From NCBI RefSeq assembly GCF_014144855.1, contig NZ_JAALDN010000480.1, positions 1-39,912 of the forward strand: 39,912 bases of DNA. The letters are read 5' to 3'. The DNA comes from Dietzia maris (GTDB taxonomy: Bacteria > Actinomycetota > Actinomycetes > Mycobacteriales > Mycobacteriaceae). This document shows, piece after piece, positions 117 through 39,912 of the stretch (within the stretch, counting starts at the first letter, position 1; each line of letters begins with the position of its first letter). A program made the translations under genes and the position numbers. The notes under the pieces were generated by a model. It was not told where the DNA came from and made no database searches. It worked only from the letters and a program-made list of their open reading frames with translations.

Positions 117-157
117 GACCGTGGCCACAGATGATGGCTGCAGTGAGGAGTGGTGTC

Positions 158-1258: not shown

Positions 1259-1284
1259 CGCGTCGACCGAACCGGGGGGATTTG

Positions 1285-7741: not shown

Positions 7742-8994
7742 TCCGGCCGACCACGCCCATCCTCGGTCGCGCCGTCCGCGCGGTCGGTGCCAGCGCGCTC
7801 GTGGCCGCCGTCGCGGCGGGGTGCTCGTTGAATCTGGAGGACTACACTCTGCCGGGTGGCGCGGACCTGGGTGAGGACCCCATGCACGTGGCCGTCCGCT
7901 TCGACGATGTGTTGGACCTGGTCCTGCAGTCGTCGGTCAAGGTCAATGGTCTTGACGCCGGTCGCGTGTCCGGTATTTCGCTGGCGGAGGACGGGTGGAC
8001 CGCAGAGGTGGACATCGTCCTCCGCGGCGACATGGAGCTCCCCGCCAACGTCGAGGCCTCGATCCAGCAGACCAATCTCCTTGGCGAGAAGTTCGTGCAG
8101 CTCAGCCCGCCGGAGGACGAGCCGCCCACCGGAGAGCTGTCCGGCGGTGACGTCATCGCCAGTTCGGACACCCGCACGGCTACCGACATCGAGCAGGTTC
8201 TCGGCGCGCTGTCGCTGTTGCTCAACGGCGGCGGCGTGGACCAACTGCAACCGATCGTGGCCGAACTGCGCAAGGCCACCGACGGCCGCGAGGAGGATCT
8301 CACCCGGACCCTGCGATCGGCGGAGGAGCTCATCGGGGGCCTGAACCGGCAGCGCGACAGCATCACCGAAGCCCTCGAGGGCGTGAACCTCATGACGTCG
8401 CGTGCCAACGATCAGCGCCAGCAGATCGAGGCGGCGCTCGACGAGCTGCCCGCCGGGGTGGCGGTGCTCGAGGAGCAGCGCTCGCAGTTCGTGGAGATGC
8501 TGCGCCGGGTCGACACACTGGGCCAGGTCGGCTCGGAAGTCCTGCTCACCAGCAGGGAGGACCTCATCGCCGACCTGCGGGCGCTGCGCCCTGTGCTGCA
8601 GTCCCTCGGCGAGTCGACTCCGGAGCTCATCGAACTGATCGGTTTCGTCCCCACCTTCCCGTTCCCGGACTCGTCTATCCCGGCGACCGTCGGCGGCGCG
8701 GCCAACATCTTTCTCTCCGTGGACGCGACGATCTCTGAGACGCTCCAGAATCTGGGGGCGAATCAGGGCGAACCGGTGGTTCGCCGTCCGAACACCACGA
8801 GCGGGCCCTACGTCGTGGACCCGCAGAACCCGTGGGTCGGCGACAACGGCCCGGACCGGCGGACGACCATCGTGCTGCCGCTCCTGCCGGTCCCGCCGGT
8901 CATGGACCGGGCGGTGGTGCCCAAGCCCGCACCAGGAGTCTCGGAGTTCTCCGAGAACTACCTGCCCGAACCAGGAGAGCCAGGAAACCGATGA
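7738..8994 (+). CDS. mceE: MceE lipoprotein (LprK-type) substrate-binding subunit
   Basis: The lipoprotein member of the Mce set, 418 aa. The signal peptide (MIRPTTPILGRAVRAVGA...) ends in the lipobox VAAGC with Cys29, so the mature protein is expected to be lipidated and tethered to the membrane. The MCE domain follows (MHVAVRFDDVLDLVLQSSVKV), then a helical region and the family-typical GFVPTFPFPDSSIPATVGG block. ATG 7738 is fixed by the ATGA overlap with mceD and by the lipoprotein signal that only this start gives; a longer in-frame extension to 7486 is a shadow within mceD. Confidence 0.93.
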   Translation: MIRPTTPILGRAVRAVGASALVAAVAAGCSLNLEDYTLPGGADLGEDPMHVAVRFDDVLDLVLQSSVKVNGLDAGRVSGISLAEDGWTAEVDIVLRGDMELPANVEASIQQTNLLGEKFVQLSPPEDEPPTGELSGGDVIASSDTRTATDIEQVLGALSLLLNGGGVDQLQPIVAELRKATDGREEDLTRTLRSAEELIGGLNRQRDSITEALEGVNLMTSRANDQRQQIEAALDELPAGVAVLEEQRSQFVEMLRRVDTLGQVGSEVLLTSREDLIADLRALRPVLQSLGESTPELIELIGFVPTFPFPDSSIPATVGGAANIFLSVDATISETLQNLGANQGEPVVRRPNTTSGPYVVDPQNPWVGDNGPDRRTTIVLPLLPVPPVMDRAVVPKPAPGVSEFSENYLPEPGEPGNR

Positions 8995-10235
8995 GCAAGA
9001 CACTCCGCACCCAGCTCATCGCCTTCTGTGTGATCGCCGCGGTCGGGATCACCTATGTAGGTGCCAACTACGTTCGCTTACCTTCGCTGTTCGGGATCGG
9101 CCAGTACCAGGTCTATCTGGACCTACCCGAGACCGGCGGGGTGTTCACCAACGCGGCCGTCAACTACCGCGGCACGGCGATCGGACGGGTGGGCGAGCTC
9201 TCGCTCACCGACGACGGTGTGCGAGTCGAGCTCGACCTCGACTCGAGCGCCCCCGACGTCCCGGCGGACACCGAGGCCGTGGTCGCCAACCGCTCCGCCA
9301 TCGGAGAGCAGTACGTGGACTTGCGACCCAACAGCAGCTCGGCGCCGTATCTCGAGGACGGGGACGTGGTCTCCGCCGGACGTGAGGCGTTGCCGGTACC
9401 CGTCGAGAACCTGTTGGCCTCCGTCGACGACCTTTCCCGATCGGTCCCCTTGGACGATCTCGAGGTGACCGTCGATGAACTCGGCAAGGCGTTCCAGGGC
9501 CGGGGACCCCAACTGGAGCGACTCTCGGACTCCCTCATCCGGATTTCCGAGTCCGGTATCCGCACCATGCCGCAGTTGCAGACGCTGATCCGCGACGGGG
9601 CGACCGTCCTGGAGACGCAGGCCGACCAGTCCGGCGAGATCGTCAGTTTCTCCCGCGATCTCAGGACGGTCACCGAGGCGTTGCGTGACTCGGACTCCGA
9701 CCTGGAACGGCTGATCACCACGGGACCGGAGTTCGCCGACGAGACCCGCTATCTGGTGGAGAACTCCGGCGCCCCGCTCTCTGGAGCCGTGCGGAACCTG
9801 TCGGCGACGATGAAGACAATAGATCCACTGGCGCCGTCGTTCAAGGTGCTCCTGCAGCTGTTGCCGGCACTGGCCGCCGGCGGGATGTCCGTCGCTCCTG
9901 GGGACGGGACAATCCACTTCGGTCTGTCCCTCGAGACGAACAACCCACCAGCGTGTACGCAGGGGTACGAAGGTACGTGGGAGATCATCGACCAGATGAA
10001 GGCGCAGGACCCGTCCTTCGACTGGCAGGAACAGAACTTCCCGCCCAACTACGACGCGCAGTGCACCGTGCCCTTCGGCAGCCCCACCGCCGTCCGCGGT
10101 GCCGACCGGGTGGAGTACGCGCACCCGGACGTGCCGCAGCCGTGGGACACCAAGCCCAAGATCGACCCCGACAGGGCCAACCTGTCCGTGGCGGCCACGC
10201 AGCTCGCGGTGTTGCAGGGGTTGATCCCCCGGTGA
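8991..10235 (+). CDS. mceF: MceF substrate-binding subunit
   Basis: Last of the six MCE proteins, 414 aa. The membrane anchor covers about residues 7-25 (TQLIAFCVIAAVGITYVGA) and the MCE domain starts at QYQVYLDLPETGGVF. MceF-type features are the VNYRGTAIGRVG strand and C-terminal cysteines in PPACTQGYEG and DAQCTVPFGSP. The ATG overlaps the mceE stop by 4 bp with AGGAGAG upstream. The stop overlaps a GTG that probably starts the next gene. This completes one full A-F set, with no duplicated or missing subunit. Confidence 0.92.
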   Translation: MSKTLRTQLIAFCVIAAVGITYVGANYVRLPSLFGIGQYQVYLDLPETGGVFTNAAVNYRGTAIGRVGELSLTDDGVRVELDLDSSAPDVPADTEAVVANRSAIGEQYVDLRPNSSSAPYLEDGDVVSAGREALPVPVENLLASVDDLSRSVPLDDLEVTVDELGKAFQGRGPQLERLSDSLIRISESGIRTMPQLQTLIRDGATVLETQADQSGEIVSFSRDLRTVTEALRDSDSDLERLITTGPEFADETRYLVENSGAPLSGAVRNLSATMKTIDPLAPSFKVLLQLLPALAAGGMSVAPGDGTIHFGLSLETNNPPACTQGYEGTWEIIDQMKAQDPSFDWQEQNFPPNYDAQCTVPFGSPTAVRGADRVEYAHPDVPQPWDTKPKIDPDRANLSVAATQLAVLQGLIPR

Positions 10236-26860: not shown

Positions 26861-26889
26861 CCGGGCCCGGCCGCGGTGCGGGGGTGCGT

Positions 26890-26931
26890 GGTCAGCTGGT
26901 GGCGACCGGGCGGTCAGCGGGTGGCGACCGG
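26890..26931. repeat. 20-bp tandem duplication across the yccF stop
   Basis: GGTCAGCTGGTGGCGACCGG (26890-26909) is repeated with one change at 26912-26931, 22 bp apart. The second copy contains the yccF stop codon (26914-26916), so the last codons of yccF have been duplicated into the gap behind it. Confidence 0.75.
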
Positions 26932-27330
26932 CACCATCGCCGCCCGGTCGGAGCGGACGATCTCCTTGCCGAACGGGAAGCACGTGACCGGGATGAGCTT
27001 GAGGTTGGCCCACGCTAGGGGCAGGCCGATGATCGTCACGGCCTGTGCGACGGCCGTGGCGACGTGGCCGATCGCCAGCCACAGTCCGGCCACCAGGAAC
27101 CAGATGACGTTGGCGACCGTGCTCACCCCGCCGGGACGGCCCCGGTCGACGACCTCCCGGCCGAACGGCCACAGCACGTAGGCGGCGATCCGGAAACTCG
27201 CGACCCCGAACGGGATCGTGATGATGAGGATGCAGGCGAGGATCCCGGCCAGCACGTAGCCGAGGAACAGCCAGATGCCCGCGGTCAGCAGCCAGATGAT
27301 GTTGAGGACGAGGGTCAGCACTGCACGCAT
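26914..27330 (-). CDS. yccF: YccF-family (DUF307) membrane protein
   Basis: Small integral membrane protein, 138 aa, with two tandem YccF repeats. Each has a pair of hydrophobic helices (LVLNIIWLLTAGIWLFLGYV and TVANVIWFLVAGLWLAIGHV) followed by the conserved IPFGVASFR/LPLAWANLK and WPFGREV/FPFGKEIV motifs. The function of the family is not established. ATG 27330 (minus) sits 7 nt behind TAGGGT, so it is probably leaderless. The gene is convergent with the AhpD-like gene and divergent from the MoxR gene, 55 bp away. Confidence 0.9.
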   Translation of the reverse strand: MRAVLTLVLNIIWLLTAGIWLFLGYVLAGILACILIITIPFGVASFRIAAYVLWPFGREVVDRGRPGGVSTVANVIWFLVAGLWLAIGHVATAVAQAVTIIGLPLAWANLKLIPVTCFPFGKEIVRSDRAAMVPVATR

Positions 27331-27337
27331 GGTGCCC

Positions 27338-27343
27338 ACCCTA
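27338..27343 (-). promoter_or_regulatory. Leaderless -10 box of yccF
   Basis: On the minus strand TAGGGT is followed after 7 nt by the ATG at 27330. Transcription would start at the start codon. Confidence 0.4.
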
Positions 27344-27372
27344 TGCCGGAAGCGGAAGTGGCATCGCAGGGC

Positions 27373-27378
27373 TACGGT
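27373..27378 (+). promoter_or_regulatory. Leaderless -10 box of the MoxR gene
   Basis: TACGGT is followed after 7 nt by GTG 27386, so the mRNA should begin at the start codon. Only about 30 bp separate it from the yccF -10 on the other strand. Confidence 0.4.
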
Positions 27379-27385
27379 GGGCGGT

Positions 27386-28783
27386 GTGAGCGATAAGCCG
27401 AACGTCAAGACTCTCGGCGAGCTGCGCGCCGCCGGATACACCAGCCGCACCCTCCGGGAGGAGCTGCGCGAGAACCTGCTCGCGGCCCTGGCCGCCGGAC
27501 GCGATCCGTGGCCCGGCATGCACGGCTTCGACACGACGGTGATCCCTCAGGTCGAGCGGGCGATCATCGCCGGCCACGACATCGTCCTCCTCGGCGAACG
27601 CGGTCAGGGCAAGACCCGCCTGCTGCGCACGCTCGTCGGGTTGCTGGACGAGTGGTCGCCCGTCGTGGCCGGATCCGAGTTGGGTGAGGACCCGCTCGCG
27701 CCGATCACCGGACCCACGCGCGAGCGGATCGCCCGTGAGGGCGATGCGCTGCCCGTGCAGTGGCGCCACCGTGACGAGCGCTACGTGGAGAAACTGTCCA
27801 CCCCGGACACCTCCGTCGCCGACATGATCGGCGACGTCGATCCCATGAGGGTGGCCGAGGGCCGCCGACTGGGTGACCCGGAGACCATCCACTACGGGTT
27901 GGTGCCGCGTGCGAACCGCGGGATCGTGGCCCTCAACGAGCTGCCCGACCTGGCCGAGCGGATCCAGGTGGCGTTGCTCAACGTCATGGAGGAGCGGGAC
28001 GTCCAGATCCGAGGCTACGTCCTGCGCCTGCCGCTGGACGTGCTGGTGGTGGCCTCGGCCAACCCGGAGGACTACACCAACCGCGGTCGGATCATCACTC
28101 CGCTCAAGGACCGGTTCGGCGCCGAGATCCGGACCCATTACCCGCTCGACCTGGCCGACGAGATCGAGGTCGTGCGGCAGGAAGCCGAGCTGACCGCCGA
28201 GGTGCCGGACCCGCTGATGGAACTGCTCGCCCGGTTCACGCGCGAGCTGCGCACCTCCGACTCGATCAACCAGGCCTCCGGCGTCTCCGCCCGCTTCGCC
28301 ATCGCCGGCGCGGAGACCGTCGCGGCGGCGGCCCGACGGCGGGCGGCCGTGCGGGGTGCCGACGACCCGGGTGAGTCCGTGGCACGGCTCGTCGACGTGG
28401 ACGCCGCCGTCGAGGTCCTGCGCGGCAAGATCGAGTTCGAGCCCGGCGAGGAGGGGCGCGAGACCGAGATCCTGCGGTACCTGCTGCGCATCGCCACGGT
28501 GGACGTCGTCCGCGGACTGTTCCGGGGGATCGACATGACCCCGCTGGTCGACGCGTTCGACGGGTCGGTGACCCTCACGACCGGCGCGAGCGTCACCGCC
28601 GCCGAATTCCTCGCAGCCCTGCCCGAGCTGTCCGAACCGGGGCTCTACGATGAGATCGCCGACAGGGTCGGGGCGTCCAACGTCGGCCAGCGGGCCGGCG
28701 GGATCGAACTGGCGCTGGAGGGGCTCTACCTCTCACGGCGTCTGTCCAAGGAGACCGGGGACGGCGCCGCCGTCTACGGCTGA
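27386..28783 (+). CDS. MoxR-type AAA+ ATPase (magnesium-chelatase-I-like)
   Basis: AAA+ ATPase of 465 aa. Walker A is G70ERGQGKT77 and Walker B GIVALNE (N184-E185). The conserved AAA segments that follow, LLNVMEERDVQIRGY and VVASANPEDYTNRGRIITPLKDRF, are of the magnesium-chelatase I/MoxR clade. The C-terminal lid is followed by EILRYLLRIATVDVVRGLFRG. Size and order match M. tuberculosis Rv0958 (recalled as 459 aa). These ATPases act as remodelling chaperones for a partner with a VWA domain, here the next gene. GTG 27386 is set by the leaderless -10; an upstream in-frame extension has no support. No cobalt or magnesium chelatase genes are nearby, so chlorophyll or B12 function is unlikely. Confidence 0.88.
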   Translation: MSDKPNVKTLGELRAAGYTSRTLREELRENLLAALAAGRDPWPGMHGFDTTVIPQVERAIIAGHDIVLLGERGQGKTRLLRTLVGLLDEWSPVVAGSELGEDPLAPITGPTRERIAREGDALPVQWRHRDERYVEKLSTPDTSVADMIGDVDPMRVAEGRRLGDPETIHYGLVPRANRGIVALNELPDLAERIQVALLNVMEERDVQIRGYVLRLPLDVLVVASANPEDYTNRGRIITPLKDRFGAEIRTHYPLDLADEIEVVRQEAELTAEVPDPLMELLARFTRELRTSDSINQASGVSARFAIAGAETVAAAARRRAAVRGADDPGESVARLVDVDAAVEVLRGKIEFEPGEEGRETEILRYLLRIATVDVVRGLFRGIDMTPLVDAFDGSVTLTTGASVTAAEFLAALPELSEPGLYDEIADRVGASNVGQRAGGIELALEGLYLSRRLSKETGDGAAVYG

Positions 28784-28827
28784 CACCATCGGCGGCTGCC
28801 GTGCGCCGCCGGAGCAGGAGGTGCGCG

Positions 28828-30846
28828 ATGTCGCGACCAGAGCCCCGCGCCCGCTACGGGCGCTACATCGGCGGGCCGGACCCCCTCGCGCCCCCGCTCG
28901 ACCTGTCCGAGGCGCTCGACGCGGTTTCCGAGGGCGTCATGGCCGGGTACTCCCCGGAGCAGTCCATGCGGGAGTTCCTCCGCACCGGCGGCCGCGACCA
29001 GACAGGCCTCGACGAGCTGGCCGGACGCATCCAGCGTCGACGCCGCGAACTGCTGCAACGGAACCACCTGGGCGGCACCCTCGAGGAGGTCTCCCGGCTG
29101 CTCGACGAGGCGCTGCTCGCCGAGCGGGGACAGCTCGCCCGCGACACCGCCATGGATCCGATGGACCGCACCCTGCGGGAGATGACCATCGAGAACCTGC
29201 CGGACTCGCCGGCCGCCGCGGTCGGGGAACTCAAGGACTACGACTGGGCCTCGTCCGACGCCCGCGAGGCGTACCGCCGCATCCAGGACCTCATGGGCGC
29301 CGAGGTGCTCGACGCCCGATTCGCCGGGATGAAACAGGCGCTGGAGAACGCGACCGACGCCGACCGGGCGGCGGTGTCGGAGATGCTGTCGGACCTGACC
29401 GAACTGCTCGACAAGCACGCCCGCGGTGAGGACACCCCCGAGGACTTCCGGGAGTTCATGGACAAGCACTCCGACGCGTTCCCGGAGCAGCCGAAGGACG
29501 TCGAGGAGTTGATCGACACCCTCGCCGCGCGGGCGGCCGCGGCCCAGCGGATGATGCGCTCGATGACGCCGGAGCAGCGGGAGGAGCTCATGGCCCTGTC
29601 GCAGCAGGCGTTCGGTTCGCCCGAGTTGATGGAGCAGCTGGGCCGGTTGGACGGGCTGCTGCAGTCCCTGCGTCCGGGCGAGGACTGGGACGGCTCGGAG
29701 GACTTCGAGGGCTCCGAGGGGTTGGGGATGTCCGAGGGGACCGCGGCCATGGCCGAACTCGGGGACCTCGACCGGCTGGCCGAACAGCTCTCCCGGAGCG
29801 ACAGGTCCCCGCTGTCCGAACTCGACCTGGAGGCGGTGGCCCGCCATCTCGGTCGCGAGGCGGCGGTGTCCGTGCAGACGCTGTCGCGGCTCGAACAGCA
29901 GATGCGTGAGTCCGGCTACCTCAGTCGCCGACCGGACGGGGACCTCCGACTCTCCCCGGCCGCGCTGCGCAAACTCGGGAGGTCACTGCTCCGCGACGCC
30001 GCGCAGCGGTTGTCCGGCCGGACCGGCGCGCGCGAGACCAGGCTGTCGGGGGCCGCGGGGGAGCAGACGGGGTCGAGCCGGGCCTGGGAGTTCGGTGACG
30101 TCGAGTCCTGGGACGTGCCGAGGACCGTGGGCAATGCGATCTCCCGGATCGCCGCGGAGGGGGGCGAGACGGGTGCGGGGATCCGGCTCCTGCCCGAGGA
30201 CATCGAGGTCAGGGAGACCGAGGCGCGGACCCAGGCCGCAGTGGCGCTGCTGGTGGACACGTCGTTCTCCATGGCCATGGAGGGGCGGTGGGTCCCGATG
30301 AAGCGTACGGCCCTGGCCCTCCACCACCTGGTGAGCACCCGTTTCCGGCAGGACCGGCTGCAGCTCATCTCGTTCGGCCGCTTCGCCCAGACCCGGACAG
30401 TGGAGGACCTGCTCTCCCTGGACGCGCAGTACGAGGCCGGCACGAACCTGCATCATGCGCTCCTGCTCGCCGGGCGGTATTTCCGTGAGCACCCGACGAT
30501 GCAGCCGGTGTTGCTCATCGTCACCGACGGCGAACCCACCGCCCACCTGCTCAGCGGCGGGGAGCCGTGGTTCGCCTACCCGCCGGACCCCGACACCATC
30601 CGGATCACCGTCGACGAGTTGGACCGGGTCGCCCGCACCGGGGCGCAGACGACCTTCTTCCGGCTGGGCGACGACCCGGGTCTGTCCCGGTTCCTCGACG
30701 CGCTGGCCCGGAGGGTCGACGGCACGGTGGTGGCGCCGGACGTCGACGACCTGGGCGCAGCCGTGGTGGGGCGGTTCCTGCACTCACGGCGCGGCCGGCC
30801 CTCACCCGGCGACCCGTGGAGCGCCGGCGGTCGCTGGGCGGTGTGA
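28828..30846 (+). CDS. VWA-domain protein, partner of the MoxR ATPase
   Basis: Protein of 672 aa, the length I recall for Rv0959. The first 400 residues are acidic, alpha-helical and rich in Asp/Glu/Gln (SPEQSMREFLRTGG, MTPEQREELMALSQQ). A long linker follows, then a C-terminal VWA domain with a complete MIDAS: D477-T-S-F-S481, a Thr in EAGTNLHHAL and D567 in VTDGEPT. No signal peptide or membrane span, so it should be cytoplasmic. ATG 28828 has AGGAGG 6 nt upstream; the GTG at 28801 is rejected. It lies 44 bp after the MoxR gene and is cotranscribed. Together they probably form a chaperone that inserts metal or matures an unknown client. Confidence 0.85.
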   Translation: MSRPEPRARYGRYIGGPDPLAPPLDLSEALDAVSEGVMAGYSPEQSMREFLRTGGRDQTGLDELAGRIQRRRRELLQRNHLGGTLEEVSRLLDEALLAERGQLARDTAMDPMDRTLREMTIENLPDSPAAAVGELKDYDWASSDAREAYRRIQDLMGAEVLDARFAGMKQALENATDADRAAVSEMLSDLTELLDKHARGEDTPEDFREFMDKHSDAFPEQPKDVEELIDTLAARAAAAQRMMRSMTPEQREELMALSQQAFGSPELMEQLGRLDGLLQSLRPGEDWDGSEDFEGSEGLGMSEGTAAMAELGDLDRLAEQLSRSDRSPLSELDLEAVARHLGREAAVSVQTLSRLEQQMRESGYLSRRPDGDLRLSPAALRKLGRSLLRDAAQRLSGRTGARETRLSGAAGEQTGSSRAWEFGDVESWDVPRTVGNAISRIAAEGGETGAGIRLLPEDIEVRETEARTQAAVALLVDTSFSMAMEGRWVPMKRTALALHHLVSTRFRQDRLQLISFGRFAQTRTVEDLLSLDAQYEAGTNLHHALLLAGRYFREHPTMQPVLLIVTDGEPTAHLLSGGEPWFAYPPDPDTIRITVDELDRVARTGAQTTFFRLGDDPGLSRFLDALARRVDGTVVAPDVDDLGAAVVGRFLHSRRGRPSPGDPWSAGGRWAV

Positions 30847-30888
30847 CCCGCCCCGCCGCTGCCCCGCCCCGGCTCTCCGCGAACCACG

Positions 30889-30960
30889 AAATCCGCTACT
30901 CCGAATCGGGATCCGCTACTCGTATCGGAATAGCGGATCCGAGTTCCGGGTAGCGGATCC
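30889..30960. repeat. Nested 10-bp inverted/direct repeats; likely bidirectional terminator
   Basis: ATCCGCTACT at 30891-30900 and 30911-30920 is mirrored by TAGCGGATCC at 30931-30940 and 30951-60, spaced in a strict 10-bp rhythm. The inner pair GGATCCGCTA (30909-30918)/TAGCGGATCC (30931-30940) is a perfect 10-bp stem with a 12-nt loop, and the outer copies extend it into a stem of about 30 bp. It sits between convergent genes, as expected of a two-way terminator. Confidence 0.7.
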
Positions 30961-30991
30961 TTGGAGGTGCGGGTCAAGGGGCGTGCGGGGC

Positions 30992-31675
<684 letters not shown>

Positions 31676-32074
31676 TCAGCTCTCGGCGCGGCGGGCGGCC
31701 TTGCGGGCACGCGCCACGTGCGGGCCCACCACGTTGCCGAGTTTGGTCCCGTTGGGCCAGCCCGCGTAGTAGCAGAGGAACACCACGATCTCCTCCAGTT
31801 CCTCGGGCGTCAGCTCGTCCTTCCCCAACGCCGCCCCCACCTGGATGTCCGCGATGTCGGTGTTGCCCTGGGCCGTCAGCGCCCCCAGGAGCAGCAACCG
31901 GCGATCGCGGTGACTCAGGCCCGGGCGGGACCAGATCCTGCCGAACAGGTGGTCCGCGGTCTCGGCGAAATAATCACCCGGCCCGTCGGACATCTCGAAG
32001 CCGTACACCTCGGTCATCATGGCCAGACCGTGCTCGCGCTCCGGGCTCATCCCGGCGTCCGCGGCGTCGCTCAT
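31676..32074 (-). CDS. Carboxymuconolactone-decarboxylase-family protein
   Basis: CMD-fold protein, 132 aa, with the family blocks LSHRDRRLLLLGALTAQGN, LTPEELEEIVVFLCYYAGWPNG and a trailing Arg/Lys-rich helix. It has a single Cys near residue 103 and no CxxC, unlike the AhpD-like protein at 26405-26860, so it is of the gamma-CMD rather than the peroxidase type. ATG 32074 overlaps the upstream dehydrogenase stop by 4 bp, so it is the last gene of the catabolic operon. Substrate not inferable. Confidence 0.82.
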   Translation of the reverse strand: MSDAADAGMSPEREHGLAMMTEVYGFEMSDGPGDYFAETADHLFGRIWSRPGLSHRDRRLLLLGALTAQGNTDIADIQVGAALGKDELTPEELEEIVVFLCYYAGWPNGTKLGNVVGPHVARARKAARRAES

Positions 32075-33102
32075 CGGTTCTCCTCGTCGTCGTGGTCTCG
32101 TCCGGTCCCGCCCGCATCGCCGGACACGCCGTCGGACGCGCGGACGTCCGCGCGGCGGGCGAGCTCACCCGGCCCGACACCGAACCCGGTGCCCAGGTCG
32201 CGCAGCGCGATGGTGCCCAGGGGCAGGTCCACGCCCAGCCGGTCGGCCAGGCCCAGGGCGAGGGACAGGTCCTTCTCGCCCAGGCCGCGGACGTGGGTGA
32301 ACACGCCGTGCCAGAAGTCGTCGGCCGCGATCGGCGCGGTGGAGTCCCGCAGCATCACGGCCCCGGCGCCGCCGGTGATGGCGTCGGTGTGGCGGACCAC
32401 CCGGCCCAGCTTGGTGATGTCGATGCCCGCGGCCTCGGCCAGCCGGGAGGCCTCGGCGGTGGCGGTGAACGAGATGAAGTGCAGGAGGTTGCGGGCCAGC
32501 TTCATCCGCGTGCCCGCACCCACTTCCCCGGCGTGCACGGGCATGCCCGCCCACAGCGCGAACACCGGCTTGCACGCCTCGTAGACCTCGCGCGGCGCAC
32601 CGACCATCACGGCGAGCTGACCCGATTCCGCCCCCTGCGCGCCACCCGACACCGGCGCGTCCACCAGGTGGACCCCGGCGGCCGCACACACCTCGGCCAG
32701 CTCAACAGCCGTCGAGTCGGCGATGGTGGAGTGGACCGCGATCACGGTCCCCGGTGCGGCGGTGCGCAGGATCCCCTCGGGTCCGTCGACGACGTCACGC
32801 ACCTGGGCGTCGTCCAGCACCGTCACCGACACCAGGCGCGCCGTGCGGGCGACCTCGGCACCGGTGGCGGCGGCGGTTGCGCCCTCGGCGACGAACGGCT
32901 CGGTCGCCTCCGGGCGCACGTCGCACACCACGAGCCCGCCCGGCCAGGCCAGGAGGCGATTCGCGATCGGCGCACCCATGTTGCCCAGGCCGATGAACCC
33001 GACCGGCGCGGGGGAGTCGCCGGGACCGCCGGGGCCGATCCGCAGGGCGGGCTTCTGTTCGGGGGCCGGGGCCGGGTCGCTCGTGATCGGATGCCCGCTC
33101 AT
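32071..33102 (-). CDS. 3-Hydroxyisobutyrate-dehydrogenase-family oxidoreductase
   Basis: NAD(P)-dependent beta-hydroxyacid dehydrogenase, 343 aa. Rossmann loop G38LGNMG43, substrate loop DAPVSGGAQGAESG (149-162) and the catalytic Lys201 in GAGTRMKLARNLL. A hydrophilic N-terminal extension of about 33 residues and an acidic tail (DDEENR) flank the core. ATG 33102 overlaps the SDR stop by 4 bp. It probably oxidises a 3-hydroxy acid intermediate of the pathway served by the operon; valine or another branched degradation is possible but not shown. Confidence 0.87.
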   Translation of the reverse strand: MSGHPITSDPAPAPEQKPALRIGPGGPGDSPAPVGFIGLGNMGAPIANRLLAWPGGLVVCDVRPEATEPFVAEGATAAATGAEVARTARLVSVTVLDDAQVRDVVDGPEGILRTAAPGTVIAVHSTIADSTAVELAEVCAAAGVHLVDAPVSGGAQGAESGQLAVMVGAPREVYEACKPVFALWAGMPVHAGEVGAGTRMKLARNLLHFISFTATAEASRLAEAAGIDITKLGRVVRHTDAITGGAGAVMLRDSTAPIAADDFWHGVFTHVRGLGEKDLSLALGLADRLGVDLPLGTIALRDLGTGFGVGPGELARRADVRASDGVSGDAGGTGRDHDDEENR

Positions 33103-33851
33103 GACCGGATGATCTGTCCGCCGTCGACGTTGAAGATCTGCCCGGTGATCCACGACGCCTCGTCCGACAGCAGGAACAGCAGCATCCCCACCAGGTCCTC
33201 CGGCTGACCCATGCGCTTGATGGGCAGCTTGTCGACCATCTCCTTGACGATCGACTGCGGGGTCGAGGAGCGGTTGGCCTCGGTGTCGATCGGCCCGGGA
33301 GCGATGGCGTTGATGCGGATGTTCGAGCCGCCCAGCTCGGTGGCGAGCTGCTGGGTGAGGCCGTTGACGCCGACCTTGGCCAGGCCGTAGAAGCCCGAGT
33401 ACAGCCACGCCGCGGTGGAGGACTGGTTGACGATCGCGCCACCGCCGGCGGCGGCCATCTTCTCCCAGCAGGCGCGGACCATGAGCAGCTGACCGTTGAG
33501 GTTCACCGACATGAACTTCTCGTAGTAGTCCCACGGCACGGTGATGAGGAAGTCGAGCTTCATGCCGCCGAAGATCGCGGCGTTGTTGACCAGGATGTCC
33601 AGGCGGCCGAACTCCTCGACCGCGGCCTCGGCGCAGGCGTTGGCCGAGTCGGGGTCGGAGACGTCCGTGTGCTGGAAGACCGCCCGGCCGCCCGCGGCGA
33701 CGATGTCCGCGGCGACGCGCTCCCCGTTCTCGGTCGACACGTCGGCGACCACCACGTTCGCGCCCTCGGCCGCGAGGACCTTGGCGTACTCCTCGCCGAT
33801 GCCGCCGGCGGCTCCGGTCACGATGGCGGTCCTACCGTCGAAACGTCCCAT
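33099..33851 (-). CDS. SDR-family oxidoreductase
   Basis: Classical SDR of 250 aa. Cofactor loop T12GAAGGIG19, NNAA (89-92), catalytic Ser144/145, Tyr155 and Lys159, and the end GQIFNVDGGQIIRS. Asp37 at the tip of beta-2 favours NAD. ATG 33851 follows AGGAAGAG; longer in-frame starts reach into the neighbouring aldehyde dehydrogenase and are rejected. It is preceded by a 148-bp spacer with short tandem repeats and overlaps the next dehydrogenase by 4 bp. Confidence 0.87.
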   Translation of the reverse strand: MGRFDGRTAIVTGAAGGIGEEYAKVLAAEGANVVVADVSTENGERVAADIVAAGGRAVFQHTDVSDPDSANACAEAAVEEFGRLDILVNNAAIFGGMKLDFLITVPWDYYEKFMSVNLNGQLLMVRACWEKMAAAGGGAIVNQSSTAAWLYSGFYGLAKVGVNGLTQQLATELGGSNIRINAIAPGPIDTEANRSSTPQSIVKEMVDKLPIKRMGQPEDLVGMLLFLLSDEASWITGQIFNVDGGQIIRS

Positions 33852-33890
33852 GTCGTGTGTGTCTCTTCCTGTCGGCGTGGTGGTGTTGGG

Positions 33891-33920
33891 TGGGGTGATG
33901 CTGGATGGGGTGGTGCTGGT
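33891..33920. repeat. 15-bp imperfect tandem repeat in the SDR upstream spacer
   Basis: TGGGGTGATGCTGGA (33891-33905) is followed directly by TGGGGTGGTGCTGGT (33906-33920). Part of a G/T-rich low-complexity spacer between the aldehyde dehydrogenase and SDR genes. Confidence 0.5.
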
Positions 33921-33970
33921 GAGTGGTGTGGGGCCAGGTGCCGGGCCAGTGGTGCCGGGTGCCCGGGCTC

Positions 33971-34000
33971 TCCGGGGCTGTCCGGGGCTGTCCGGGGCCT
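33971..34000. repeat. 10-bp tandem repeat at the end of the aldehyde dehydrogenase gene
   Basis: TCCGGGGCTG occurs at 33971-33980 and 33981-33990 and partially at 33991-34000 (TCCGGGGCCT), just past the aldehyde dehydrogenase stop. It may be a slippage-generated expansion. Confidence 0.6.
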
Positions 34001-35475
34001 CAGGCCGGGGTGGCCACGGACTTGATCTCGAGGTACTCCTCGAAGCCCTCGCGGCCCCTCTCGCGGCCGATGCCGGACTGCTTGTACCCGCCGAAGGGCA
34101 CGTCGGCGCCGTACCACTGGCCGCCGTTGACGCCGAGGGTGCCGGTGCGAATGCCGGCCACGACCTTCTCGATCCGCTCGGGGTCGGTGCCCCACACGGC
34201 TCCGGACAGGCCGTACGGGGAGTCGTTGGCGATCCGGATCGCATCGGAGTCGCCATCGTGGGGGATGACCACCAGGACGGGGCCGAAGATCTCCTCCTGC
34301 GCCACGCGTGCCGAGTTGTCGAGACCGGAGATGAGGGTCGGCTCCACCCAGAACCCGCGCTCCATGCCCTCGCCGGTGGGGCGACCGCCGCCGATCTCGA
34401 TGGTCCCGCCCTCCTGGCGCGCCAGGGCGATGTAGCCCTCGATGCGCTCGCGCTGGACCGCGGAGATGACCGGGCCGCAGAAGGCACCCGGGTCGTTGGG
34501 GTCCTTCGGGGCGAATGCCGCCATGGCGCCCTTGGCCGCCTCGACCGCCTCGTCGTACCTCTCGCGGGGCACGACGAGGCGGGTGGTCAGCGCACAACCC
34601 TGGCCGGCGTGCGTACACGCGTTGAGGGCGGTCATGAAGCACGCCGAGTTCAGGTCGGCGTCGTCCAGCACGACCGCGGCGGACTTGCCGCCGAGTTCGA
34701 GGAAGACCTTCTTCAGCGTCTCGGCGGCGGCGGCCATGATCTTCTTGCCGGTCGCGGTGGATCCGGTGAAGGAGACCAGGTCGACGCGAGGATCGGTGGT
34801 CAGCTGTTCGCCGAGGCCGTGGTCGGACGACGACACCACGTTGAGTACGCCGGCGGGGATGTCCGTCTCCTCGGCGGCGATCCGGGCCACGGCCGCGGCG
34901 ATGAGCGGGGTGTCGGGGGCGGGCTTGAGCACCACGGTGCAGCCGGCGGCCAGCGCGGGGCCGATCTTGGCGAAGTTGATCTGGTTGGGGAAGTTCCACG
35001 GGGTGATGGCCCCGACGACGCCGATCGCCTCGGGCCGGGTCGAGCGGTTGGAGCGCACGCCCATGATCTCGGACTCCCCTAGCTCGGTGACCCACTCGTA
35101 GGCCTCCACCAGGTCGGCGAGCCAGCCCAGGTCCGCGACGGGCCCCTCCAGCTGGGGGCCGGTCGTGAACATGTGGGGCGCGCCGACCTCGGCGATGGTC
35201 AGTGCCCGCAGCTCCTCGATGTGTCCCTGAAGTGCGTCGCGGAGCTGGCGCAGGCACCGCGCACGGAACGCGTGGTCCCAGGACCAGTCGGTGGTGTCGA
35301 ACGCGGTGCGCGCGGCGGCGATGGCCGCGTCCATGTCCTCGCGCCCGGCGTCGGCGGCCCGGCCGATGACCTCCTCGGTGGCCGGGTTGAGGACGTCGAA
35401 CGTGGCGCCCCCGGTCGCGGGTCGCAGCTCACCGCCGATCAGCAGGGGGGCGGTGTCGGCGATGCTCGTCGTCAC
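34000..35475 (-). CDS. Aldehyde dehydrogenase
   Basis: NAD(P)-dependent aldehyde dehydrogenase, 491 aa. Catalytic residues are in place: Asn161 (PWNFPNQ), Lys184 (LKPAPDTP), Glu260 (FLELGGKS) and Cys294 (HAGQGCALTTR). The substrate is probably an aliphatic or aromatic aldehyde formed in the pathway. I choose GTG 35475 because GGAAGG lies about 8 nt upstream and the protein has the standard length; longer frames run into the operator region. It heads the minus-strand operon (ALDH, SDR, 3-HIBADH-like, CMD-like) and diverges from the TetR gene. Confidence 0.9.
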   Translation of the reverse strand: MTTSIADTAPLLIGGELRPATGGATFDVLNPATEEVIGRAADAGREDMDAAIAAARTAFDTTDWSWDHAFRARCLRQLRDALQGHIEELRALTIAEVGAPHMFTTGPQLEGPVADLGWLADLVEAYEWVTELGESEIMGVRSNRSTRPEAIGVVGAITPWNFPNQINFAKIGPALAAGCTVVLKPAPDTPLIAAAVARIAAEETDIPAGVLNVVSSSDHGLGEQLTTDPRVDLVSFTGSTATGKKIMAAAAETLKKVFLELGGKSAAVVLDDADLNSACFMTALNACTHAGQGCALTTRLVVPRERYDEAVEAAKGAMAAFAPKDPNDPGAFCGPVISAVQRERIEGYIALARQEGGTIEIGGGRPTGEGMERGFWVEPTLISGLDNSARVAQEEIFGPVLVVIPHDGDSDAIRIANDSPYGLSGAVWGTDPERIEKVVAGIRTGTLGVNGGQWYGADVPFGGYKQSGIGRERGREGFEEYLEIKSVATPA

Positions 35476-35493
35476 TTCGGAGCCTTCCGTCGT

Positions 35494-35541
35494 GGTGGGT
35501 CGATTCAGCGGTGGATCGATGCCGAGGTGGATCGATCCAGA
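35494..35541. repeat. Three direct repeats of 16-bp period upstream of the aldehyde dehydrogenase
   Basis: GGTGG(A/G)TCGAT occurs at 35494-35504, 35510-35520 and 35526-35536, each exactly 16 bp apart. The block lies between the aldehyde dehydrogenase start and the palindromic sites, in its 5' leader or promoter, and may be a regulator-binding array. Confidence 0.6.
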
Positions 35542-35545
35542 GTGG

Positions 35546-35592
35546 CTGGACAGCTGTCTAGACGATAGTCCGGACGGTGGTGTACTGTCCAG
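35546..35592. promoter_or_regulatory. Probable TetR operator region between divergent genes
   Basis: The region holds the 8-bp inverted pair CTGGACAG (35546-35553) and CTGTCCAG (35585-35592), the palindromes GACAGCTGTC (35549-35558), GTCTAGAC (35556-35563) and GTCCGGAC (35568-35575), and GTCCAGAC (35587-35594). The last overlaps the tetR -10. This suggests autoregulation and control of the divergent operon; the exact half-site is not certain. Confidence 0.6.
35583..35588 (+). promoter_or_regulatory. Leaderless -10 box of the TetR gene
   Basis: TACTGT stands 8 nt before ATG 35597 and overlaps the right-hand operator arm, so a bound repressor would block it. Confidence 0.4.
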
Positions 35593-35596
35593 ACAC

Positions 35597-36169
35597 ATGT
35601 CCAGTGATCTTCGGTTCGAATCGACGCGGCGCAGGCTCAACGGCCAGCAGGCCGAGACCGTCGACCGCCTGACCAGCGCGGCGGTCGAGGTGCTGCGGGA
35701 GAAGGGTCCGGGAGGCCTGGCCGTCCGTGCCGTGGCCGCCAGGGCCGGCGTCGCACCGGCGACCGCCTACACGTACTTCTCCTCCAAGGGCCACCTCATC
35801 GCGGAGGTGTTCTGGCGCCGTCTGGACGACCACGTGACCGAGGCCGCCGACGGTGGCTCCGCCGCCGACCGGGTGGTCGCCGTGTTGCGCGACGTCGCGC
35901 TCCTCCTCGCCGACGAGCCGGAACTGTCGTCGGCCGTCACCGCCGCCCTGTTGGGCGACGACCCCGAGGTATCCCACCTGCGGGTACGGATCGGCGCCGA
36001 TATCCGACGTCGCCTCGTGGCGGCGTTGGGGGAGCGGAACGACGACGAGGTGGTCCAGGCGCTGGAGATGGTCTACGCCGGGGCACTCGTCCGGGCGGGC
36101 ATGGGCTACGGCTCCTACTCGGACATGGCAGACGCGATCGAATCCGCAGCACGACTGATCCTGAGGTGA
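35597..36169 (+). CDS. TetR-family transcriptional regulator
   Basis: Repressor of 190 aa. The helix-turn-helix is at about 39-68, AVRAVAARAGVAPATAYTYF, with the recognition-helix pattern ATAYTYF. The remaining helices form a ligand pocket of the TetR_C type. It is divergent from the aldehyde dehydrogenase, with palindromes in the shared 121-bp gap; autoregulation and control of the two catabolic operons is the likely role. The start ATG 35597 lacks a Shine-Dalgarno and fits the leaderless box. Its stop overlaps a GTG (36166) that may start the P450 fragment. Confidence 0.87.
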   Translation: MSSDLRFESTRRRLNGQQAETVDRLTSAAVEVLREKGPGGLAVRAVAARAGVAPATAYTYFSSKGHLIAEVFWRRLDDHVTEAADGGSAADRVVAVLRDVALLLADEPELSSAVTAALLGDDPEVSHLRVRIGADIRRRLVAALGERNDDEVVQALEMVYAGALVRAGMGYGSYSDMADAIESAARLILR

Positions 36170-36177
36170 CGCCCGAG

Positions 36178-37167
36178 ATGACCACCGCGACGCCCGCTCC
36201 GCTCGTGTTCAGCCCGTACGACTACGCGGTGCACGAGGATCCCTACCCGTTCTACGCCCGTCTCCGCGCCGAGGCGCCCGTCTACAACAACCCGGACCTC
36301 GACTTCTGGGCGCTGAGCAGGCACGCGGACGTCCGCGAGGCGTTCCGCGCGCCGGACGTGTTCTCCAACGCCATGGGGGTCTCGCTGGACCCCGCCGCGT
36401 ACGGGCCGCACGCCTACAAGACGATGTCCTTCCTCGCGATGGACGATCCCCGCCACGCCCGCCTGCGCAAGCTGGTGAGCAAGGGGTTCACCTCCAGGCG
36501 CGTGGACGCCCTGTCCGAGGGGATCTCGAGGATCTCGCGGCAGCACTGGGACGAGTGCCTGGCCCGGTCCCGCGACGGGGAGACCATCGACTTCGTCGAC
36601 GACTACGCGGGCAAGCTGCCCATGGACGTCATCTCGGATCTCATGGGCGTACCGGAGGTCGACCGGGCCGAACTGCGTCGGCTGGCCGACCTCGTCATGC
36701 ACCGCGAGGAGGGCGTGCAGGACGTGCCGGAGGACTCCATGGTGGCCGCGCTCGACCTCATCACCTACTACCAGGGGATGGTCGCCGAGCGTCGTACCGC
36801 CCGGACCGGGGACCTCACCTCCGCGCTGCTCGACGCCGAGATCGACGGCGAGAAGCTGGACGACGACGAGATCCTGTCCTTCCTGTTCCTCATGGTGGTG
36901 GCCGGTAACGAGACCACGACCAAGCTTCTGGCCAACGCCCTGTTCTGGGGCCACGAGTACCCCGGCCAGTCGCGGGCCGTGCTCGACGGACGTGGCGATC
37001 GAGGAATGGCAGGCCGCCAGTCCCCACTACGCCCGCCGGATGAAGGACGCGCTGTCGATCACCGGCGACGGCGTCGCCGAGATCTTCAAGGGCTTCCAAC
37101 TGGACGTGGGCGCCCCGCCGGAGTTCATGGACTTCCGGTACTCGGTGACCGACCACGACAACGGTGA
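36178..37167 (+). pseudogene. Truncated cytochrome P450, heme domain missing
   Basis: The first about 264 residues are a normal bacterial P450: N-terminal SPYDYAVHEDPYPFYARLR, the C-helix DDPRHARLRKLV, and the I-helix with A242GNETTT248. After ALFWGHEYPGQ (near 36969) the frame loses homology and runs through junk (RAVLDGRGDRGMAGR...) to a stop at 37167. The ExxR helix and the Cys-containing heme loop FGxGxHxCxG are absent from this frame and from the other two downstream, so a deletion of several hundred bases is indicated rather than a simple frameshift. It therefore cannot bind heme. ATG 36178 is used; GTG 36166 overlapping the tetR stop is possible. Confidence 0.82.
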
Positions 37168-38113
37168 GTTCTGGCTGGACCACTGTGGAGCCCTCATGGA
37201 CGTCGAGCCGATGGGGGACCGGCTGGTCACCACCATGTGCCACGACATCGAGGACCCCACCTTTCCCGCCACCGCGCTGGCCACCAATCCGCTCGCGGTC
37301 GTCGAACCCATCCACCGCCCGCCCCGCGCCCCGGAGGGCCGCACCCCGCACTGCCACTGGCGGGTGCGGATCGACCCGGACGGCGAGCCGTTCCCGGTGC
37401 CCGGACCCGCGCTCGAGTCCGCGTCCAGCCGGATCATCGACTTCCGGTTCGACCCCCCGGCGCCCCGGGACACGACCGGCGAGGGCCCGCGCGACGACTA
37501 CGCGGGACCACTGCTGACCGACCTGGTCTTCACCGAGTTCACCTCCGCCGCACTCATCCGGATCACCCGCGAGGTCTATCTCCAGATGCACCTGCTCGCC
37601 GTCGGTTTCCACCAGTCGGTGCGGCGTCGGTCGGACACCGAGACGGCGGACCGGCTCCTCGCCTACCAGGCCACCGGCATCGCCGGTGTCGCGGCGGGAC
37701 GGATCCGCGAGGTCCTGGGCGTGGGCCCCGACGCGCTCGGCCTCGCCGCGGTACTCGACGTGCACCCTCTCGCCGGGCCCACCGCTTACACCGGCTACTC
37801 ATCGGAGGTGTCCGCGGACGGTACCGAGCTGACGGTCCGCTGGGACACCGCCGCCGACGGGTTCGCCGACGACACCTGGCTCCCGCTGCTCGCCCGGGAC
37901 GGGCTCCGGCCCCTCGCCGCCGCCGCGCAGGCGGTCGACCCGCACTGGACCGTGGAGCGAGTCCCGACGGACGGCTCGCACGTGGAGGCGGTCCTGCGGT
38001 TGGGCGACGAGCCGGCCACGGAGGGCGAGGAGGTCGCCGTCACCCGCATCAGCACCGGCGCGGCGTTCACCTTCGGACCCACCCGCACCCCGCTCCCCAT
38101 CACGCCCGTCTGA
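36992..38113 (+). CDS. Unrecognised actinobacterial protein, probably missing its N-terminus
   Basis: 373 aa from GTG 36992, lying inside the P450 fragment's out-of-frame tail. The first residues (VAIEEWQAASPHYARRMKDA) enter directly a conserved-looking domain with DVGAPPEFMDFRY, HCGALMDVEPMG and MCHDIEDPTFPATALATNP. The second half is alpha/beta and ends TGAAFTFGPTRTPLPITPV. I recall similar proteins in mycobacteria near P450 genes, but no function. No catalytic motif, membrane span or signal is seen. The start is weak, and an upstream region appears to be lost in the deletion that removed the P450 heme domain. Confidence 0.6.
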   Translation: MAIEEWQAASPHYARRMKDALSITGDGVAEIFKGFQLDVGAPPEFMDFRYSVTDHDNGEFWLDHCGALMDVEPMGDRLVTTMCHDIEDPTFPATALATNPLAVVEPIHRPPRAPEGRTPHCHWRVRIDPDGEPFPVPGPALESASSRIIDFRFDPPAPRDTTGEGPRDDYAGPLLTDLVFTEFTSAALIRITREVYLQMHLLAVGFHQSVRRRSDTETADRLLAYQATGIAGVAAGRIREVLGVGPDALGLAAVLDVHPLAGPTAYTGYSSEVSADGTELTVRWDTAADGFADDTWLPLLARDGLRPLAAAAQAVDPHWTVERVPTDGSHVEAVLRLGDEPATEGEEVAVTRISTGAAFTFGPTRTPLPITPV

Positions 38114-38171
38114 ACCGACCCCACCCGACGAGTCCGCTCCACCCGAGTAGCCCGCCCCGGAGGACCCCGTA

Positions 38172-39812
38172 ATGGCACACACCCTGGCAGATCTCTTCGA
38201 GCACGCGGTTGACGCGTACGGACGCGACCGGCTCGCGGTGGTGGAGGACGACCGCCGGCTCACCTACGCGGACCTGGAGGCCGAGGCCAACCGGTGGGCG
38301 GACGGGCTGGCCTCCCGGGGGGTGGGGCCCGGCGATCACGTGGCGATCCACCTGCGCAACGGGGCGGACTGCATCGCGCTGTTCCTCGGCGTCCTCAAAC
38401 TCCGTGCCGTGCCCGTCAGCATCAACTACCGCTACGCGGGATCCGAGCTGGGGTACCTCTACGACTACTCCGACTCCTGCGCCCTGGTCTTCCATCGCGA
38501 GTTCACCCCGGCGGTGGCGGGTGCGGCCGGGGACGCGGAGCGGCTGCGTCACCTCATCGTGGTCGAGGACGGATCCGGGGCGGGGGAGCTGCCGTCCGGC
38601 ACGCTCGACGCCCGGGAACTCCTCGCCGCGGCCTCGCCGGACCGGGCGCCGGTGGAACGCATCGCGGACGACCTCTTCCTCGTCTTCACGGGCGGGACCA
38701 CCGGCAAGCCGAAGGGCGTGATGTGGCGCCAGGAGGACCTGTGGCGCAGCCTCGGCGGGGGCAGCGACTACTACACCGGGGAGCCGGTGCCCGACGAGTA
38801 CCACCAGTCCCGTGCCGGCCTGGGCGGGGACCCCGCGCGCTACCTCGTCCTGCTCCCGCTCATCCACACCTCCGGGCTCATGCCCTCGTTCACCGCCCTG
38901 GTCTCCGGGGGCACGTGCCACTACCTGCCGCACTTCCGGGCGCCCGACGTGCTCGAGGAGATCGAGAGCGAGAAGATCCAGATCGTCGTCCTCGCCGGCG
39001 ACGCCATGGTGCGGCCGATGCTCGAACGGATGCGCGGCACCGGTGCCGACACCTCGAGTGTGTTCATGGTCAGCTCCGGCGCCGCCCTGTTCTCGCCATC
39101 GGTCAAGGCCGAGCTCTTCGAGCTGCGCCCCGATCTCATGATCATGGACGCGTTCGGGTCCTCCGAGAGCGGCTTCGGCGGGCTGGGAGTCGTGACGAGG
39201 GCGAACGTCGACGACGGGTCCCTGTTCGCAGACCACGGCCCCCGCATCCCCCGGGGCAGCGGCCTGCAACTGGTGGACGACTTCGACGAGCCGCTGCCCG
39301 ACGACTCCACCGAGATCGGCTGGATCGTCAAGGCCGGCTACCAGCCCAGTGGCTACTACAAGGACGCCGCCAAGTCGGCGGAGACGTTCCGCGAGATCGC
39401 CGGGACCCGGCGGGTCTTCACCGGCGATCGCGGCAGGTACGACGGCCCGGACACGATCATCATGCTCGGCCGGGGCAGCCAGGTGATCAACTCCGGTGGC
39501 GAGAAGATCTTCGCCGAGGAGGTCGAGTCGGCGCTCAAGGCAGCCGAGGGCGTGCAGGACGCCGTGGCGCTGGGCGTGACGGACGAGCGGTTCGGCCACC
39601 GGGTCGGGGCGGTGCTCCAGTGGGATGACGGCCACACCGGGGACTTCGCGGCCCTGGAGGAGGCGCTGCGCGCGACCCTGGCGGGGTTCAAGATCCCGGT
39701 CGCGTTCTGGGTCGTCGACAAGGTGGAGCGGCACCCCAGCAGCAAGACGGACTACGGGTGGGCCAAGCGGACCCTCGCCGCCCGCGGACCCGACCACGAC
39801 CGCCGGCAGTGA
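38172..39812 (+). CDS. FadD19-like acyl-CoA synthetase
   Basis: ANL-superfamily acyl-CoA synthetase, 546 aa. P-loop T173GGTTGKPKG182, the long-chain/steroid-type MWRQEDLWRSLGGGSDY segment, GSSESGFGG, GYYKDAAKSAETF, DRGRYDGPDTIIMLGRGS and the C-terminal SSKTDYGWAK with the catalytic-type Lys. The motif order and spacing align closely with mycobacterial FadD19, which activates steroid side chains, so a branched or steroid-like acid is a good guess. ATG 38172 follows GGAGG 8 nt upstream. It is the only intact enzyme of the plus-strand group and overlaps the next gene by 4 bp. Confidence 0.88.
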   Translation: MAHTLADLFEHAVDAYGRDRLAVVEDDRRLTYADLEAEANRWADGLASRGVGPGDHVAIHLRNGADCIALFLGVLKLRAVPVSINYRYAGSELGYLYDYSDSCALVFHREFTPAVAGAAGDAERLRHLIVVEDGSGAGELPSGTLDARELLAAASPDRAPVERIADDLFLVFTGGTTGKPKGVMWRQEDLWRSLGGGSDYYTGEPVPDEYHQSRAGLGGDPARYLVLLPLIHTSGLMPSFTALVSGGTCHYLPHFRAPDVLEEIESEKIQIVVLAGDAMVRPMLERMRGTGADTSSVFMVSSGAALFSPSVKAELFELRPDLMIMDAFGSSESGFGGLGVVTRANVDDGSLFADHGPRIPRGSGLQLVDDFDEPLPDDSTEIGWIVKAGYQPSGYYKDAAKSAETFREIAGTRRVFTGDRGRYDGPDTIIMLGRGSQVINSGGEKIFAEEVESALKAAEGVQDAVALGVTDERFGHRVGAVLQWDDGHTGDFAALEEALRATLAGFKIPVAFWVVDKVERHPSSKTDYGWAKRTLAARGPDHDRRQ

Positions 39813-39912
39813 CCGCGCTCCACCTGGGCGGGCGGGCGTACGCCGTCACCGGATCCTCGCGCGGGATCGGGTCCGCGGTGGCCGAGGACCTGGCGGCCCG
39901 GGGTGCGGACGT
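39809..39912 (+). CDS. Short-chain dehydrogenase, cut by the window end
   Basis: GTG 39809 overlaps the FadD stop (GTGA). The first 34 codons read VTALHLGGRAYAVTGSSRGI then GSAVAEDLAARGAD, which is the T-G-x3-G-x-G cofactor loop of an SDR. The rest lies beyond the window. The coupling makes it a likely partner of the acyl-CoA synthetase, for example a hydroxyacyl-CoA dehydrogenase. Confidence 0.75.
   Translation, partial: MTALHLGGRAYAVTGSSRGIGSAVAEDLAARGAD

Follow-up and report, generated by a model that had tools for sequence, protein, structure and literature searches.

The analysed stretch of DNA, hereafter the window, is a complete Dietzia contig of 39,912 bp (C422), taken from a 3.07-Mb assembly that consists of 563 contigs. 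This assembly is 83% complete, so that about 17% of the genome is missing from it and the absence of a gene from the assembly alone is weak evidence. The window contained 87 open reading frames of at least 150 residues, and 20 chosen ones were scanned outside the P450 locus described below, several being clearly non-genes. It was observed that positions 131-10232 carried an mce-type operon, which started with an ABC ATPase and a pair of MlaE-like permeases, all three scoring under their NCBIfam cut-offs, and continued with six MCE family proteins, all of them over the NCBIfam cut-off.

The P450 locus is bordered by three intact genes. On the left, an Rv0768-like aldehyde dehydrogenase gene was found on the reverse strand (ORF bounds 34000-35640), divergent from the rest, and its product matched NCBIfam TIGR04284 with 824.8 bits (cut-off 775); its true start is probably placed near 35445, since the match to this family sets in at residue 66. 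It is followed on the forward strand by a TetR-family regulator gene (35597-36169; Pfam TetR_N), whose product aligned with residues 1-190 of the counterpart in G018 with 97% identity. G018, a close Dietzia relative with a single-contig complete genome, was used as the main reference. On the right, a FadD-type acyl-CoA synthetase gene was found on the forward strand (38172-39812; NCBIfam PRK07798.1, 592.3 bits, cut-off 543). The preliminary description of this DNA had raised the possibility that the rest of the locus was decaying, which found no support, since these three genes were full-length and dN/dS ranged from 0.06 to 0.18 in the four stretches tested (TetR, the P450 remnant, the remaining part of the downstream gene, and FadD). 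The FadD gene showed a dS to G018 of only 0.09, far under the 0.38 and 0.45 obtained for the P450 remnant and the downstream part, which suggests recombination between lineages.

Between the TetR and FadD genes, the remnant of a CYP123-type cytochrome P450 gene was identified on the forward strand (36178-36987), covering codons 1-270 of 405 and being 95% identical to residues 1-270 of the G018 protein. The CYP123-type label is tentative and derives from the gene neighbourhood: CYP51 followed this P450 in 71 of 80 P450 loci, many of them mycobacterial, which formed the wider comparison, and cyp51 and cyp123 are listed together in M. tuberculosis (PMC10198500). The remnant matched the Pfam p450 family with 27.1 bits (cut-off 22.8) and 372 distinct PDB sequences at E 0.001, the best match spanning residues 1-265; its top solved structures were CYP125MRCA (a reconstructed ancestor, judging from the name), YjiB, and CYP124. 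Of six P450 loci inspected in its own genome, three had open frames, with 429, 435, and 440 residues, that were related to this P450.

P450 proteins are characterized by the I-helix motif AGxxT, the K-helix motif ExxR, and the heme-ligand cysteine loop FxxGxxxC. P450 homology extended from the start codon at 36178 to residue 265-270, just beyond the I-helix AGNETT, and ended at 36987; as the preliminary description had recognized, it stops after the I-helix, and the heme-binding half is missing. In G018, residues 271-405 hold both ExxR and FxxGxxxC (heme loop FGQGPHFCLG); when this part was searched across the window, nothing better than E 0.1 was obtained, and none of the three forward frames encoded FxxGxxxC within 36600-38300. 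An explanation by frameshift or by sequencing error was rejected on the same grounds, because the heme half would then stay readable in another frame, and none was found in the window. The frame of the remnant stays open for 329 codons from 36178 (ORF 36166-37167), its last 59 codons being an out-of-frame, non-P450 tail (36988-37167, forward strand) that lies inside the next gene and ends with the stop at 37165-37167. Judging from the chemistry of the family, this product would be unable to bind heme or to act as a P450, because the heme ligand is missing.

The downstream gene also proved to be shortened at its N-terminal end and to begin out of phase close to the break, both of which had been proposed earlier. 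It is readable on the forward strand from codon 52 (36992-38113), where the first possible start, a GTG, lies 4 bp past base 36988, in frame +2 relative to frame +1 of the P450. The junction enters the gene at codon 51, so that its first 50 codons are missing and 51 residues would be lost if translation started at 36992; no ATG, GTG, or TTG was found upstream of this position in the downstream open frame. In the relatives, 14 near-invariant positions lie between residues 21 and 49, all in the lost part. The protein belongs to an uncharacterised actinobacterial family in which stretches such as LDHCGAL and MCH.IEDPTF are invariant, and sequence searches of Pfam, NCBIfam, and the PDB assigned no family to it. 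In the structure modelled for an intact relative (pLDDT 82.5), the cut is predicted to fall within a long helix (residues 40-74), and three shorter helices ahead of it would be lost. A Foldseek search with this model gave a best E of 0.03 and nothing at E 0.001, and its comparison with V4R/TRAPP proteins (Z up to 7.4, rmsd 4.0, 154 aligned, VIA) fell in a range commonly met; the model may weakly resemble V4R/TRAPP-type domains over residues 24-188, lost parts included. Deprived of its own start and of its N-terminal helices, the downstream stump is probably inactive or nearly so. It should be considered that the ORF at 36992-38113 may pass in annotation as a complete gene despite the lost true start.

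The two broken genes meet at 36988-36989, a junction at which 3,605 bp are absent relative to G018 and which reads ...GTGCTCGACG on the P450 side, directly followed by GACGTGGCGATC... on the side of the downstream gene. Window positions 27244-36988 aligned without a break with G018 1129827-1120110, and positions 36988-39912 with G018 1116504-1113534, both with 90-92% identity, and the 3,605 bp between the two aligned blocks were present only in G018. The flanks abut directly with nothing inserted, and the homology at the junction amounts to one base, 36988, which fits both sides. When G018 was compared with the whole 40-kb window, the P450 locus was the single multi-kb gap in the alignment, besides one unaligned stretch of 380 bp (26864-27243), in the place of which G018 has 74 bp.

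In G018, the missing stretch contained, in this order, the sequences coding for P450 residues 271-405, a short-chain dehydrogenase/reductase (SDR) of 264 residues, a second P450 of 464 residues, a ferredoxin of 93 residues, a SnoaL-like protein of 194 residues, and codons 1-50 of the downstream gene, which is 424 residues long when complete. The second P450 was identified as a CYP51, with CYP51B1 (7tef) and M. tuberculosis Rv0764c (1e9x) as the best matches among solved structures, at E 3e-212 or better. The ferredoxin matched Pfam single-cluster ferredoxin domains, and neither it nor the SnoaL-like protein had an NCBIfam match at 1e-10; the name SnoaL-like is tentative, because its Pfam score (23.1 bits) lies under the cut-off (27 bits). 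It had been proposed that a deletion fused the P450 to the next gene. A deletion joining two broken genes was indeed recovered, but these genes are not neighbours, as four complete genes lie between them in the relatives.

This arrangement was found to be common in the genus. Among the 22 other genus genomes compared (23 including that of the window), 14 carried on a single contig the P450, followed by the CYP51 and then by the downstream gene; the two break points were 3,583-3,669 bp apart there, as worked out by hand from match positions, versus 28 bp in the window. The gene-by-gene inspection covered 13 of these 14 genomes (all but G005), and each of the 13 had the full set of six block genes. 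Of the eight remaining genomes, D. aerolata (G001) had CYP51 on another contig and G012 had a rearranged block, the block was split over contigs in G010 and G019, the contig of G014 began inside the SDR gene, and G008, G011, and G017 gave no CYP123 or CYP51 match at 1e-60 and no downstream-gene match at 0.001. Even when as many as three mismatches were allowed, the junction string occurred in only 1 of the 23 genomes, that of the window itself. Chance is excluded as an explanation, because 14 of 22 genomes show 3.58-3.67 kb where the window shows 28 bp and the junction string is confined to its own genome. It had also been suggested that relatives with an intact P450 between these points would point to an assembly error. 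Such relatives exist; they reveal the ancestral state, which does not by itself indicate an error.

In the 80 loci of the wider comparison, the genes found after the P450 were the SDR in 75, CYP51 in 71, the ferredoxin in 70, and the SnoaL-like gene in 67, and the P450 reached at least residue 390 in 79, the remaining one stopping 45 bp from a contig end. Four of the nine loci without CYP51 ended less than 200 bp from the P450, and the other five belonged to Dietzia aerolata, two Nocardia, Actinomadura craniellae, and a short contig (L152). The two Nocardia loci (L122 and L131) kept CYP123, SDR, ferredoxin, SnoaL-like gene, downstream gene, and FadD, but CYP51 was not seen within the block, and TetR gave no match. 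In G012 (L048) the block was split, with TetR directly before CYP51, and the CYP123-SDR pair lay more than 5 kb away, past the aldehyde dehydrogenase gene. In G010, two contigs stopped at CYP51 residue 169, each with 489 bp of CYP51, and two stopped at SnoaL-like residue 17 (among L049, L050, L157, and L158); these paired ends may reflect either a duplicated segment or an assembly break.

These data altogether make it very likely that a single, real and recent deletion of about 3.6 kb joined the two broken genes. In this reading, one event in this Dietzia lineage would have removed the 3′ third of the CYP123-type P450 gene, the SDR, CYP51, single-cluster ferredoxin, and SnoaL-like genes, together with codons 1-50 of the next gene, joining the stumps out of frame. 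Recombination between direct repeats was rejected as the cause, since no repeats were found at the break points in the relatives; in G013, the longest direct word common to the 500-bp surroundings of both points had 14 bp and did not lie at the points. Repeat recombination is unlikely for this reason, and end joining is the natural reading: the break was presumably sealed with 0-1 bp of homology, and a Ku gene is present in the same genome (PF02735, 178.6 bits, cut-off 25, E 2e-52). An inserted element at the junction was likewise rejected, as the flanks abut. A second copy of the block elsewhere was not found either: among the 40 of 275 candidates that were scored, the missing segment had no close copy in its own assembly, its three matches there (68-75% identity over 126-196 bp) being taken as paralogues, and CYP51 gave no match at 1e-60 in this genome. 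The effect of the deletion would be the loss of a CYP123/CYP51/ferredoxin oxidation module.

The substitutions of the P450 remnant bear on the age of the event. With G013 as outgroup, the window branch had accumulated 15 synonymous and 6 non-synonymous changes in this part since the split from G018, and the G018 branch 37 and 6. Under neutrality, about three quarters of the changes would be expected to be non-synonymous (from site counts alone, mutation bias being ignored), and 6 of 21 were observed (p 8e-6). Protein change was not significantly faster on the window branch than on the G018 branch (p 0.19). Because the changes are mostly synonymous, the loss would be recent relative to the split from G018, or else not real, two readings that this test does not separate.

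The last point leads to the main rival explanation, in which the whole block is still present in the genome and its flanks were wrongly joined by the assembler or by gap closing. The deletion is known from one draft assembly of one strain, as fragmented and as incomplete as given above, a distance of 2.9 kb separates the junction from the end of its contig, and an undecayed stump would be expected equally from a misjoin. However, the relatives have no misleading repeat at either point, the flanks keep the order and orientation found in the relatives, and both show the same affinity, with dS to G018 and G013 of 0.38 and 0.25 on the left and 0.45 and 0.32 on the right. Moreover, among the candidates scored, no close copy of the missing DNA was found on another contig. 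On the whole, an assembly error is unlikely. As for the background of large deletions, a 20-kb stretch of G018 (1 of 15, L058-L072) compared with the genome of the window gave scattered pieces only and was uninformative.

A mixed population, in which part of the cells in the sample carried the deletion and the assembly displays the deleted form, seems highly improbable. The assembly may derive either from an isolate or from a metagenome, and a deletion of the same genes segregates in an M. tuberculosis sublineage (PMC10198500), but the second allele was not found on another contig among the candidates scored. The open frame of 329 codons could also be seen as a functional new fusion protein, composed of the N-terminal part of the P450 and a novel tail with a new role. 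This has a negligible probability, considering that the tail results from reading the next gene out of frame, that the heme ligand is missing, that in this region chance alone leaves many long, overlapping frames open, and that the 22 other genus genomes all lack the junction.

The deletion, taken as real, looks like ordinary gene loss. The loss of gene blocks is frequent in bacteria. The single event would matter little in itself, a deletion of the same genes having already been published for M. tuberculosis (PMC10198500), and its main use would be that of a natural knockout of a block kept by many relatives and lost elsewhere too. Strains without CYP51, its ferredoxin, and the neighbouring P450 offer a way to ask what the bacterial CYP51 does. 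It is doubtful that the CYP123-SDR-CYP51-ferredoxin block is dispensable and repeatedly lost or reshuffled in actinobacteria and that its loss was, in addition, adaptive here, for example after the substrate vanished from the niche; were this true, natural deletion strains could reveal the native role of the bacterial CYP51. The preliminary description had further deduced the loss of a first oxidation step, for which there is no basis, because no substrate of M. tuberculosis CYP123A1 had been identified as of 2018 (PMC6208970).

CYP51 is named for sterol demethylation. M. tuberculosis keeps CYP51 though it is described as non-sterol-producing (PMC9868604). CYP51B1 is driven in vitro by the corresponding M. 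tuberculosis ferredoxin (PMC6208970), and in a review table both CYP123A1 and CYP51B1 were scored as non-essential in all of the listed screens, including cholesterol (PMC6469627). The M. tuberculosis gene order cyp123, rv0765c, cyp51, and rv0763c, the last one coding for the ferredoxin (PMC10198500, from its gene list), corresponds to that of the genes missing from the window, which in the relatives are ordered as P450, SDR, CYP51, and ferredoxin; a TetR gene and an Rv0768-like aldehyde dehydrogenase gene also adjoin the block, and the CYP51 of G018 matched Rv0764c with E 3e-212. A difference is that the downstream gene and FadD directly follow the block in Dietzia, whereas the mycobacterial loci inspected gene by gene had no downstream-gene match after the SnoaL-like gene.

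Within the genus, D. aerolata (G001, L085/L046) resembles the window in that CYP51, ferredoxin, and SnoaL-like gene are gone between the SDR and the downstream gene. However, its CYP123 and SDR genes are intact, and the CYP51-ferredoxin-SnoaL trio lies on another contig (L156), beside a FadD paralogue (35%), so this case is a relocation and not a loss. No report of the present deletion was found in the part of the Dietzia CYP51 and P450-deletion literature covered, as judged from titles and the beginnings of abstracts.

The closest known counterpart is a 4,886-bp deletion shared by three genomes of M. tuberculosis sublineage 4.8.a, which affects rv0762c, rv0763c, cyp51, rv0765c, cyp123, rv0767c, and aldA, genes termed non-essential or hypothetical by the authors (PMC10198500). 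Both are natural multi-gene losses that hit the same genes. They differ in genus and in end points, and rv0767c, which by its position is probably the TetR gene, and aldA are hit in M. tuberculosis, whereas their counterparts are intact in the window. Such events are known, therefore, even for these genes, and the Dietzia case would represent an independent one, in another genus.
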